Shown here one piece after another: positions 11,746 to 16,316 of a stretch of DNA of 53,402 nt. The notes beneath the pieces were generated by a model. That model did not search any database, was not told where the DNA came from, and saw nothing but the letters and a program-made list of their open reading frames with translations. How positions within the stretch are numbered: position 1 is the stretch's first letter; each line of letters starts with the position of its first letter. Location: positions 1 through 53,402 of the forward strand of contig JAESQX010000044.1 in the NCBI GenBank assembly GCA_016764875.1, in the 5' to 3' direction. Both the position numbers and the translations under genes were made by a program. This DNA is from Gammaproteobacteria bacterium. Its GTDB lineage: Bacteria > Pseudomonadota > Gammaproteobacteria > Pseudomonadales > Pseudohongiellaceae.

Positions 11746-11787
11746 CTGATTTGCATCAAAACCTGTTGTAAATCTTTGATCTATCCT
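11746..11787 (+). promoter_or_regulatory. FNR/Anr-type class II promoter of the 37-residue membrane protein
   Basis: CTGAT-TTGC-ATCAA (11746-11759) matches the FNR/Anr consensus TTGATnnnnATCAA at nine of ten positions. A -10-like hexamer TATCCT lies at 11782-11787. If transcription starts about seven bases after it (near 11794), the box is centred at about -41.5, the classical position for an FNR-activated promoter. The first gene downstream is the small ORF at 11830. This is consistent with induction under low oxygen; no experiment supports it here. Confidence 0.6.
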
Positions 11788-11829
11788 GCTTTATGTATCA
11801 GTAGTAGACATCAACGTGGAGGTGGAGAT

Positions 11830-11943
11830 ATGAGTGCACATGTTCAGGAAAGAGAGGCAAGGCTTCAACCGGTAGTGCTTATTATTTTTGGCTGTTCGGT
11901 GGCGATCATGATAGGCGCTTATCTGCTGGGGCAGATGTTCTGA
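11830..11943 (+). CDS. Small single-helix membrane protein (37 residues)
   Basis: ATG at 11830 follows a strong GGAGGTGGAG site and encodes a polar 17-residue head (MSAHVQEREARLQPV) and one transmembrane helix (VLIIFGCSVAIMIGAYLLG), ending in QMF. It lies between an FNR-type promoter and a strong terminator, so it forms a complete one-gene transcription unit of its own. Size and topology are like the small accessory subunits of respiratory oxidases (CydX, CcoQ/CcoM types), but I recognise no specific family and no oxidase genes are nearby. The presence of all three signals makes chance unlikely. Confidence 0.7.
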   Translation: MSAHVQEREARLQPVVLIIFGCSVAIMIGAYLLGQMF

Positions 11944-11970
11944 CCTTCTTAAGGTAGTTCGAAAGCAAAG

Positions 11971-12007
11971 AAAAGGGGCAGATCTTTCGATCTGCCCCTT
12001 TTTATTT
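11971..12007. terminator. Bidirectional Rho-independent terminator
   Basis: AAAAGGGGCAGATC (11971-11984) pairs perfectly with GATCTGCCCCTTTT (11989-12002) across a TTTC loop. The + strand continues TTTATTTTT, and the minus strand reads CTTTTCTTT. It ends both the small membrane-protein gene and the leftward molybdenum hydroxylase operon. Confidence 0.9.
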
Positions 12008-12033: not shown

Positions 12034-13023
12034 TTAAGCACTAATAGCGCGTTTAACCAGATTCTGCATTAGAGGAACTTTATATCCATTATGAGCCAGT
12101 ACTCTGGCGCCATCTGTTGACATGGCGGCTACTGACTCCGCCGTAGACGAATTTTTGGCTTGACCACGAATAGCATTTTCTACGTTGGTTACCCGTCGTG
12201 GAGTACATTGCACGGCACCACAAACTATTCGAGAGTCTTCAATATTACCCCCACTGACTTTGAATGCGGCAGCGATATTTACCAGAGCGAAGTCCCATGA
12301 GTTACGGTCAGCTACTTTTTCAAAATAGAAAGTTGCATTGGCCCAGGTAGAAGGGATTCTAACCGAAGTCAGGATTTCTCCGGGACGTAACGCAGTAGTG
12401 TTCTCGATGTCGATAGCCGGCCCCACAAAATAGTCTTCGGCAGCCAGAGTCCTTTCACCGCCTGAGCTTTGAATTACCATGGTTGCATCCAGGGCGACCA
12501 GAGCCGGGGCGGTATCTGATGGGCTGGCGGCCACACAACGACTGGCTTCGAAAAGAGAGTGTTCTCTGTTCATCCCTTCAGGTGTATCTGCATAACAGAG
12601 GTTACCACCGGCTCGATAACAATCCAGACCTCGACGGTAATACCAGCAGCGAACATCCTGTGAAACATTGCCTCCCAAAGTACCTATGTTACGTATTTGT
12701 GGGCTGGCTACACGACCCGCAGCATCCGAAAGCACGGAATAGCGTTGAGTAATAAGATCGTTACCGGTAATTTCGGTCAATGTCGTCAGGGCGCCGATCT
12801 CGATACCGTCAGCGGTTTCCTTGATGCCCCGCAGCGACTCGATTCCGCTCAGGTCGATCAAGGCTTCGACAGATTTTGCACGATCCTTCAACCAACCGTA
12901 AGTATCTTGTCCGCCGCCAACCAACCAACCTCTTTCTGCTAAGCGGTCAGCAATTGCTAAAGCATCTTCTACCTGTACTGGTTGGTAGAGGTCCATATTT
13001 GGCATTACGTCATGTGATGGCAT
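12034..13023 (-). CDS. Molybdenum hydroxylase FAD-binding subunit (PaoB/YagS-like)
   Basis: 329 residues, the medium subunit of a xanthine-dehydrogenase-family enzyme. It takes electrons from the FeS subunit to FAD. The FAD-binding region shows LVGGGQDTYGWLKD (34-47) and RNIGTLGGNVSQD (111-123). Four cysteines (126, 135, 143, 163) follow in an inserted loop, as in PaoB, where the equivalent loop binds a [4Fe-4S] cluster; all four are kept here. A CO-dehydrogenase flavoprotein C-terminal domain completes it. Third gene of the operon, nine bases after the large subunit. Confidence 0.88.
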   Translation of the reverse strand: MPSHDVMPNMDLYQPVQVEDALAIADRLAERGWLVGGGQDTYGWLKDRAKSVEALIDLSGIESLRGIKETADGIEIGALTTLTEITGNDLITQRYSVLSDAAGRVASPQIRNIGTLGGNVSQDVRCWYYRRGLDCYRAGGNLCYADTPEGMNREHSLFEASRCVAASPSDTAPALVALDATMVIQSSGGERTLAAEDYFVGPAIDIENTTALRPGEILTSVRIPSTWANATFYFEKVADRNSWDFALVNIAAAFKVSGGNIEDSRIVCGAVQCTPRRVTNVENAIRGQAKNSSTAESVAAMSTDGARVLAHNGYKVPLMQNLVKRAISA

Positions 13024-13032
13024 AGTTATCCC

Positions 13033-15474
13033 TCAGAAAGTATTAGTTTTAAGATTAGGAGTCTGGGTGCTGTAAGTATTACCAGCGAGATGGTTAATTA
13101 TCATATCCGTTGTTACCGGTGCTGTGTTAAACACATGGCCATCCAGAGCATCGGCGATCGCACTTGCCAGTGCGGCGGCTGAAGCACCCTGGGTAGGTTC
13201 GCCTATTCCTCTGGCCCCTATGGGGTTTTGTGGATCAGGAATATTTACTGCAGACATATTGGTATCCGTTGAAATATCCAGGTAAGTTGGCGGCTTGCTC
13301 TGATAGAGACCAACGTTGGCAGGCAAGCCGTTTTGAGGGTCATAGACATGACGCTCCAAACCAGCCAGGCCGACACCCCAAACTGCACCACCTCGCATGG
13401 CATTTTCAAAATTCTTTGGATGCACTACAGTTCCGCAATCGGCTACCGCCGCGTAATTGAGAATTTCGTATTTACCTGTATCAAGATCCATTTCAATTTC
13501 ACAAAATCCAACCTGGATTCCTGGTGGTTGACCCTGACCAGGAATTTTATCCTTGGATACCCCTACCAGGCCAGTGCCTTGTATTCCCTGCACAGCCCGT
13601 TGGGTAATGGGGTTAATATCGTCAGGATATTCCATGCCGCTATATTTGCCACCCATTTCAATGGCTTTTTGTGCGGCTTCAGCATAACTCAATCCTTGAG
13701 TTGAATCACTGGATTTGAATACTCTTTCGCCACCAATTTCAAAATCCTCAGGTGAGCCACCGAGTTCACTGGCGGCAATTTCCTTCAATTTGGTAATTGC
13801 ATCCTGAGCGGCTACCCAGTTGGCACGGCCATGGGTAAACATAGTGTTACTGCCACCCTGTCCGGAGCTGTGGGGAAGGTGATTGTCGGTTCGCCCGCGG
13901 TGAATTTCACAATTGTCCCATTCCACCTGCAGGGCTTCCGCCGCCGCTCGACTGGTGCCGGCATAGGAATAGGTTCCCAGGTTACCAACACCACTGTGTA
14001 TATGAAGTTTACCGTCCGGTGCTATGCGAACCAGGCCGTCATACCCCCGGCCACCAGCGCCGTGGTATCCGATGCCTACTCCGACACCCCGTACTTTTGA
14101 ACCGTTACGTTTCGGCTGATTGATTTTTTCGTCCCAACCGAACAACCGCGCACCCTGGTCAAGGGCTTCGCGCCCAAATGCGCTGGTCAAAGGTCCTCGG
14201 CTACCGCCCTGAAAACCATCACTATCCGCCACATTAACCCGGCGAAAAGCGACCCGGTCCATATTGATGGAAGTGGCAATTTTGTCACTGATCGGTGCCA
14301 GTACCGCCGCCATTTCATTTTGTCCCGGACCGCGTTGTGCGCCGCGAGGAGTAGTATTGGTGTATACGGAAATTCCGCGAAAACGCATGCTTTCAGGTTG
14401 GTACGCAATGGTTACATGTTGAGCAGAAGAACTCCCACTACCGCCGCCTGTTGAGCCTCCATCGTTAACAATTACCAGATCTACCGCGGCTACCTTGCCA
14501 TTGTCCTTAACACCTATCTTGATCCAGCCCTGCATACCGGAGCGTGCGGAGCCTAGATAAAACTCCTGCTCACGGGTAATCCTCAGCTGAACTGGCCGGT
14601 TGAGCATTCTGGAGAAATTACCGCTGATAGCCATGTAGGGATAGGGGCCAATCTTGGAACCGAATCCACCACCGGTGGCTTCGTTGATGAAAACAAGGTT
14701 AGCGGGATCAATGTTCAGCATTCGTGCCAGGCCGTTGTCGTTGGCACTCTGGCTTTGTGATGAACCATGAAAATAGCATTTACCATTTTCCCAGTAGGCC
14801 ATGCTGGTTCGTGGTTCCAGTGAGTGGTGAGGATAGCCAATGGTGACAAACGGCTCTTCTATAATATGGGTGCTTTGCGCGAACCCTGCTTCGAGGTCAC
14901 CGAAGGCCCATTCGCTGGGAAATTCAGCTCCTACTGGCTCCTTACCTTCGCGAAGGGCATCAATGGCGGATTGCGGCCATTTAATATCCTTGATTTCCGC
15001 GCTCATGATAGGCGTGCCTCCCGGACCTATTTCCCGGGTTCGCAGTAGCACATTTCCTTCCGGGTAGGCTTTGGGGCCGCCGGGGGCAAGGCTTTCAAGA
15101 GGATCAATCACAAAATCCTTGCGTTCTATATCGACACGGATACGGGATATGGCTTCCTCGGCAATCTCCTCGGACACGGCCGCTACAGCCAGGATAGGCT
15201 GGCCGACGAACGTAATATACTCGGAAGCCAGGGCCGGATTACCGGGAGGCGGTGAGGGAGGTAAATCGTCAGCGGTCATAATGCCAATCACACCATCCAT
15301 TCGTAAAGCATCCGAGGCATCGATGTTGGCTACCCTGCCGCTTGGCATAGGGCTGGTCAGCAGTCTGGCGAAAATCATACCTTCGCGTTTGTAATCCTCC
15401 GCATACTTTATCTCACCGGTTACCTTGCCAGGGATATCAGGTGGCATAAAATCTTTTCCTATGTGCATAGTCAT
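13033..15474 (-). CDS. Molybdenum hydroxylase large (Moco-binding) subunit (PaoC/YagR-like)
   Basis: 813-residue catalytic subunit of the xanthine oxidase family, expected to hydroxylate an aldehyde or N-heterocycle using water. The N-terminal half carries IPGKVTGEIKYAEDY, typical of aldehyde oxidase/xanthine dehydrogenase a/b-hammerhead domains. The glycine-rich Moco segments include NEATGGGFGSKIG and SSGQGGSNTMFTHG. The catalytic Glu is Glu759 in GARGIGEPTQGASAA. No signal peptide is present, so export would be as a complex with the Tat-bearing small subunit, as in PaoABC. The start overlaps the small-subunit stop as ATGA, indicating translational coupling. No dedicated XdhC/PaoD-type chaperone gene is seen in this window. 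Confidence 0.9.
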   Translation of the reverse strand: MTMHIGKDFMPPDIPGKVTGEIKYAEDYKREGMIFARLLTSPMPSGRVANIDASDALRMDGVIGIMTADDLPPSPPPGNPALASEYITFVGQPILAVAAVSEEIAEEAISRIRVDIERKDFVIDPLESLAPGGPKAYPEGNVLLRTREIGPGGTPIMSAEIKDIKWPQSAIDALREGKEPVGAEFPSEWAFGDLEAGFAQSTHIIEEPFVTIGYPHHSLEPRTSMAYWENGKCYFHGSSQSQSANDNGLARMLNIDPANLVFINEATGGGFGSKIGPYPYMAISGNFSRMLNRPVQLRITREQEFYLGSARSGMQGWIKIGVKDNGKVAAVDLVIVNDGGSTGGGSGSSSAQHVTIAYQPESMRFRGISVYTNTTPRGAQRGPGQNEMAAVLAPISDKIATSINMDRVAFRRVNVADSDGFQGGSRGPLTSAFGREALDQGARLFGWDEKINQPKRNGSKVRGVGVGIGYHGAGGRGYDGLVRIAPDGKLHIHSGVGNLGTYSYAGTSRAAAEALQVEWDNCEIHRGRTDNHLPHSSGQGGSNTMFTHGRANWVAAQDAITKLKEIAASELGGSPEDFEIGGERVFKSSDSTQGLSYAEAAQKAIEMGGKYSGMEYPDDINPITQRAVQGIQGTGLVGVSKDKIPGQGQPPGIQVGFCEIEMDLDTGKYEILNYAAVADCGTVVHPKNFENAMRGGAVWGVGLAGLERHVYDPQNGLPANVGLYQSKPPTYLDISTDTNMSAVNIPDPQNPIGARGIGEPTQGASAAALASAIADALDGHVFNTAPVTTDMIINHLAGNTYSTQTPNLKTNTF

Positions 15475-16061
15475 GCTAATTGCCCCGAGGCGCGCATCAC
15501 GCCGTTAAGATAATGTTCATAGGCACCACATCGGTACAAATTACCAGACATCGCCTGGAGTGCTTCTTTCCGAGTTGGTCTTGGATTGGATCGCAGTAAG
15601 GCTACTGCAGACATCACCTGCCCTGGGGTGCAGAAACCGCATTGAGGTGAGTTCTCGTCGATAAATGCCTGTTGTACCGCGTGTAGCGTACCGTCAGCGG
15701 CTTTAATACCTTCGATGGTGGTTACGGTTTTGCCTTTAACATTATGGGTCAATACAGAACAGGAATAGTTGGGGACTTCATCGATTAACACAGTGCAGGC
15801 GCCACATTCGCCACGATTACAACCGAGTTTTGTCCCGGTGAGGTCGAGTTTATAACGTAGTGTGTGGGCGAGTGTTTCCTGAGGAAGTACGTCAACTGGT
15901 CGGTTGCGACCGTTTATATTTAAGGTTACCAGGCGTTCGGCGGAGGATTGGCCTGATTGGGCATTTGCGAGATAAAAACTGGCGCCAGTAGAGGCAGCGG
16001 CGCCGGAAAAAATTACCCCTTTGATAAAACGTCTGCGTGTTAGTCTTGAATTCACTGACAT
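15471..16061 (-). CDS. Molybdenum hydroxylase [2Fe-2S] subunit with Tat signal (PaoA/YagT-like)
   Basis: 196 residues. A twin-arginine signal (RRRFIKGVIFSGAAAS, from residue 9) suggests a periplasmic enzyme. The plant-ferredoxin-type cluster has Cys81, 86, 89 and 101 (CNRGECGACT). The second, helical cluster normally uses CxxC plus CxC. Here Cys141 and Cys144 (CGFC) and Cys178 are present, but the first residue of the CxC pair is Tyr176 (GNLYRCGAY; codon TAC instead of TGC), so one iron ligand is missing. This is one base away from the normal sequence. First gene of the three-gene operon, with an FNR-type box upstream. Confidence 0.9.
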   Translation of the reverse strand: MSVNSRLTRRRFIKGVIFSGAAASTGASFYLANAQSGQSSAERLVTLNINGRNRPVDVLPQETLAHTLRYKLDLTGTKLGCNRGECGACTVLIDEVPNYSCSVLTHNVKGKTVTTIEGIKAADGTLHAVQQAFIDENSPQCGFCTPGQVMSAVALLRSNPRPTRKEALQAMSGNLYRCGAYEHYLNGVMRASGQLA

Positions 16062-16316
16062 TGCTCCGTTTCAGTTGTTTTTGTTGATATACAACCGGAG
16101 GGGTTATACATGCACATTTAATCTGGATTTACGACATTCAGCTGATGTGCAGGCTACGATTTTCTAGCTAAAAAAGCAACAAATCCTGATCTAAATCAAT
16201 ACGGAAACTGCCTGTAAATAGTGGCTCTGGATGAGAAAGGCAAAAATTGGCCACCGGTGTGGAACAAAATAACTGATGGTCAGCGATTACCCTTACATTC
16301 AGTGTACAAATAACAC
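16062..16316 (-). promoter_or_regulatory. Promoter region of the molybdenum hydroxylase operon with FNR/Anr-type box
   Basis: CTGAT-CTAA-ATCAA at 16186-16199 (minus strand TTGAT-TTAG-ATCAG) matches the FNR/Anr consensus at nine of ten positions. Downstream on the minus strand, TAGAAA (16166-16161) is a possible -10. The box lies about 130 bases before the start codon of the FeS subunit. It nearly equals the box in front of the 37-residue membrane protein, suggesting a shared oxygen-responsive regulator. Confidence 0.55.

Follow-up and report, generated by a model that had tools for sequence, protein, structure and literature searches.

A new small single-helix membrane protein behind a conserved FNR-type promoter, tentatively an accessory of a low-oxygen respiratory complex

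We describe a 37-codon gene, real and previously unnamed, in the window (the whole 53,402-nucleotide stretch of contig JAESQX010000044.1 that was analysed), and propose, tentatively, that it encodes an FNR-induced single-helix protein of the inner membrane that would act as an accessory of a low-oxygen respiratory complex, with a partner that we infer. Positions 11746-12003 hold a complete small transcription unit, made up of an FNR/Anr box, a −10 element, a Shine-Dalgarno region, the 37-codon frame and a terminator (Table 1). The original prediction had called each of these parts, together with one clear transmembrane helix in the frame; all of them were found where it had placed them, including a single hydrophobic helix. 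A box whose center lies about 32 bp from that of the −10, which puts the site at −41.5, matches the layout of FNR class II promoters, and transcription would be expected to start near 11794. Since the terminator scores on either strand, it is probably shared with the convergent xanthine-dehydrogenase-like operon at 12034-16061 (minus strand), which it would also end; the Tat-signal 2Fe-2S, molybdenum and FAD subunits of this operon were named by reading. Standard gene callers may overlook a gene of 37 codons. A single box matching at nine of ten positions is by itself weak to modest evidence, as eight such boxes were found in the window against 2.4 expected, and the case therefore rests on conservation, that is, on the recurrence in relatives of the box, of its spacing to the −10 and of the frame.

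Table 1. Elements of the small transcription unit, in window coordinates.
Feature	Positions	Strand	Remarks
FNR/Anr box CTGATTTGCATCAA	11746..11759	+	9/10 to TTGAT-N4-ATCAA; center 77.5 nt before the ATG
−10 element TATCCT	11782..11787	+	center 32 bp downstream of the box center, class II spacing
Shine-Dalgarno region GGAGGTGGAG	11818..11827	+	GGAGG 7 nt before the ATG
37-codon gene MSAHVQEREARLQPVVLIIFGCSVAIMIGAYLLGQMF	11830..11943	+	ATG at 11830; stop ends at 11943
Intrinsic terminator	11970..12003	+	15-pair stem, 4-nt loop, T tail

Homologues were sought with a six-frame search of 57 related genomes, which returned them within the same bacterial family, and then with a profile for which a clear match was set at E < 1e-5; such matches occur in 35 of the 84 genomes of the sister genus g5 and in the window's genome. 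The homologues that we read have 36-45 residues and the pattern L-x-P-V ... I ... Y-x-x-G, and ribosome sites precede them in the relatives too. Differences between close pairs fall mostly at third codon positions, and dN/dS is about 0.05-0.2 in most close pairs with an estimable dS (the highest value is 0.59, for L030/L045). Because these ratios are well below 1 and the differences sit at third positions, the small frame, judged by its codons, is under purifying selection as a protein. A structured RNA in its place was discarded on the same codon-wise selection and on the lack of any Rfam match. Outside genera g1 and g5 nothing convincing turned up, either in 392 genomes of the order or in 369 genomes of the class, two weak hits (L074 and L075) being noise on inspection. 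A scan of named genomes with a six-row subset of the alignment gave five loci in MAGs of Gammaproteobacteria or Proteobacteria; the carriers are gammaproteobacteria that are known chiefly through environmental or metagenome assemblies. The profile libraries offered no match of note, the best in Pfam and NCBIfam being to a eukaryotic family (E = 0.021, one member only) and the best in the PDB sequence profiles to a eukaryotic transmembrane helix (E = 0.024), and we found no literature on an FNR/Anr-controlled small membrane protein of such kind. We regard the predicted 37-residue protein as a new family. Its description as undescribed is well supported by a conserved frame that matches no family, and the proposed check for conservation in relatives found both the frame and the upstream box kept.

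The 37-residue protein has a polar N-terminus, a hydrophobic helix at about residues 15-33 and an uncharged C-terminus. Across the family the charges precede the helix, and 24 of 25 members carry none on the C-side; since nearly all charges lie on the N-side, the N-terminus is probably in the cytoplasm. AlphaFold2 predicts one continuous helix over residues 3-36, with a mean pLDDT that exceeds 90 for residue 21 onward, a model that only restates that the helix is a helix.

The control region is conserved along with the frame. Of 28 upstream regions from the family, which are not all independent as some of the species are close, 26 have a box matching at eight or more of the ten positions, 62-89 nt ahead of the ATG; the figure for shuffled regions is 6.3%. 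The −10 is typically TATnCT (often TATGCT or TATTCT) and is 31-32 bp from the box center in most relatives. The window's genome (G000) also has a match over the cut-off to NF008365, the Fnr model of NCBIfam, and hence the box, the spacing and an FNR protein in the same genome, the testable features of a class II unit, were all found. Within genus g5, where most genomes are incomplete assemblies, the oxygen sensor FNR is present in 31 of 35 carriers of the small gene and in 3 of 49 non-carriers (Fisher p = 2.6e-15, a plain value that overstates the link because of shared descent). Along a tree built on hemH from 35 genomes, the small gene changes seven times, five of them forced by well-supported branches; of the five supported independent pairs, FNR changes in step with the small gene in about 3.4 and against it in 0.2, which is consistent with the link and, with so few pairs, not significant. 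The exceptions are four carriers without a detected FNR (G101, G108, G134 and G137) and three genomes with FNR and no small gene (G095, G117 and G147), in the last of which the hemH contig ends too soon to judge the absence. G108 has its small gene elsewhere and without a clear box, and G099, also without a detected FNR, carries a decayed copy (L134, C66, about 1-350) that keeps a box-like site, the −10 and the start, with an in-frame TAG interrupting the helix. The small gene follows FNR more closely than it does the cbb3 oxidase, and much more closely than it does cytochrome bd; in ccoN-positive g5 genomes, its presence or absence matches that of FNR in all 28 cases (22 with both, 6 with neither). 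Putative control of the small gene by FNR is thereby strongly supported, and the earlier label of low-oxygen-induced appears well founded on the conserved FNR-type promoter and the co-occurrence with the FNR gene.

The link with respiratory complexes is less uniform. ccoN is present in 22 of 35 g5 carriers and in 6 of 49 non-carriers (p = 1.6e-6). In the four carriers whose ccoNOQP operons we read, a 9/10 FNR box, TTGAG-N4-ATCAA, precedes the first gene of the operon, so the small gene and the cbb3 oxidase are probably co-regulated. Some carriers have an oxidase of about 907 residues instead, a CcoN-CcoO-like fusion. At L122 (7775-10492) and L126 (6884-9595) we observed oxidases of about 905 residues that match CcoN, and FixO where tested; these fused CcoNO genes have a cytochrome-like gene close behind and a patchy spread in the genus. 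Carriers G022 (99% complete), G108 (97%), G132 (97%) and G128 (95%) showed no ccoN, FixO match or fused oxidase, and therefore cbb3 is not an obligatory partner. Nor is cytochrome bd a general one, given that cydA occurs in only 7 of the 35 carriers, with none detected in the other 28 nor in the window's genome. In G108 (C3, L064/L124) the small gene lies at the end of a cox - alternative complex III - SURF1 - DUF2909-like cluster, on the same strand, the genes of which were named from reading the sequences and not from a profile search. The lack of a C-type oxidase in the four genomes above and the context in G108 are the reasons why we speak of an accessory of a low-oxygen respiratory complex and name none. 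As for the original suggestion, that the protein may belong as an accessory subunit to a respiratory complex whose genes lie elsewhere, the association with cbb3 speaks for it and the carriers without a C-type oxidase against it; we continue to infer such a role.

Small single-helix subunits are familiar in oxidases: those of the CydX type belong to cytochrome bd oxidase, and CcoM is encoded apart from the oxidase operon. The cbb3 subunit CcoM of Pseudomonas stutzeri (PDB 5djq chain N), which has 36 residues and on which adaptation to low oxygen depends (PMC10433244), resembles our protein in size, in its one helix and in its link to low oxygen. Unlike CcoM, which has basic residues at its C-terminus, the 37-residue family bears its charges almost only on the N-side, and the small gene also occurs in genomes without a ccoN or FixO match. 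Homology to CcoM was rejected, as the profile score of 1.6 bits is reached by 18% of scrambled CcoM helices and the hhalign probability is 3.8%. CcoQ/FixQ (PF05545) is likewise a short single-helix protein tied to cbb3, but the small gene is not located between ccoO and ccoP and has no match to PF05545. The idea that it replaces CcoQ, raised by the apparent adjacency of ccoO and ccoP, was dropped once divergent CcoQ-like frames turned up between the two genes (L120 4898-5041, L121 8773-8913, L123 9197-9340 on the reverse complement and L125 10625-10792); these frames match PF05545 weakly or not at all. The protein is small and single-helix like CydX, yet it is not encoded with cydAB and cydA is rare among carriers; a CydX analogue was rejected. 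The box TTGAT-N4-ATCAA is the same as in the Anr/FNR regulon of Pseudomonas, while none of the core Anr targets listed in the abstract on that regulon is recognizably of the small-membrane-protein kind (PMC6588701). By analogy, the best explanation is that the 37-residue protein would work like the accessory helices CcoM, CcoQ and CydX, even though it departs from each of them in sequence or in gene neighborhood.

On this basis, we envisage that FNR (Anr) would switch on the monocistronic gene when oxygen falls: with its iron-sulfur cluster intact, it would bind the box at about −41.5 and recruit RNA polymerase to the class II promoter. The product, of about 40 residues, would insert as a single pass in the inner membrane, its N-terminus probably cytoplasmic. 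The face formed by the conserved Pro, Tyr and small residues (L-x-P-V ... I ... Y-x-x-G) may then pack on a larger complex of the membrane, for which a low-oxygen respiratory oxidase, or an intermediate in its assembly, is the most likely candidate, and this packing could stabilize or tune the complex as CcoM or CydX do.

Several other explanations have to be weighed against this one. A possible, if somewhat unlikely, reading is that of a free-standing membrane regulator or stress peptide, induced by FNR and similar to YohP of E. coli, that tunes the state of the membrane or its energy at low oxygen. The gene is indeed monocistronic and small, has its own regulated promoter and is present without cbb3 in several genomes, and roles of this sort have been described for small membrane proteins induced by stress (PMC12719787); nevertheless, the Pro, Tyr and Gly positions conserved along the helix point to a specific contact with another protein, and the gene is associated with oxidase genes. 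At the other extreme, a dedicated subunit of cbb3 alone, a functional counterpart of CcoM, would account for the ccoN association, including the small gene in 22 of 22 ccoN-positive g5 genomes with FNR, and CcoM itself provides the precedent. We consider it distinctly unlikely, as at least four carriers that are at least 95% complete lack a ccoN or FixO match, the sequence is no closer to CcoM than is scrambled CcoM, and other genera of the same family have ccoN and FNR and no small gene. That the partner belongs to an aa3 oxidase/alternative complex III branch is suggested by G108, where the gene follows coxB-coxA-ctaG-coxC, act genes, SURF1 and the DUF2909-like gene; this holds in one genome only, the gene being elsewhere in the others read, and even there about 200 nt separate it from the preceding gene, so that it may have its own promoter. 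We find this partner quite improbable.

The gene neighborhood offers a further candidate, an accessory of the ferrochelatase HemH or of the adjacent hybrid histidine kinase. Most g5 homologues are in the same place, between hemH and the xanthine-dehydrogenase-like operon, and the commonest order in that genus is hemH - hybrid histidine kinase - small gene. However, the window's genome has no kinase beside the small gene, with a LOG-like gene on the opposite strand instead, and G134 and G108 carry the small gene elsewhere. Moreover, several non-carriers without FNR keep hemH adjoining the operon with the small gene missing between them; as this junction is intact, the absence is not merely an assembly gap. 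The shared position is best read as common ancestry, and a function with these neighbors seems to us extremely unlikely. In G097 (C65 8619-9632, L152) the hemH reading contains five in-frame TAG codons, which may reflect decay or a changed code. The convergent operon of the window's genome has on its own strand a 9/10 FNR box, TTGATTTAGATCAG, at 16186-16199, about 138 nt before its first ATG; none of at least 9/10 was present at the corresponding place in the relatives checked. Finally, the box of the small gene might be read not by FNR but by another regulator of the CRP/FNR family, CRP-like or Dnr-like, since in one clade it is GTGATCTAGATCAT, which resembles a CRP half-site as well. In most members, however, the half of the box nearer the promoter reads ATCAA, and the small gene goes with the gene for FNR itself, which leaves very little room for this option.

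Taken more broadly, the accessory role that we favor could be that of a new FNR-dependent single-helix family, lost or decaying with the loss of FNR, whose members would not be subunits of a single terminal oxidase but a low-oxygen adaptor that several of them share (cbb3, fused cbb3-like and aa3/alternative complex III), a generalization that we offer as speculative and rather doubtful. Gene callers miss small oxidase subunits and regulators, and chance sightings in structures have often brought them to light, as with the CcoM helix. Here, regulation and gain and loss together with FNR point, from sequence alone, to a new small oxidase subunit or regulator with a short list of partners.
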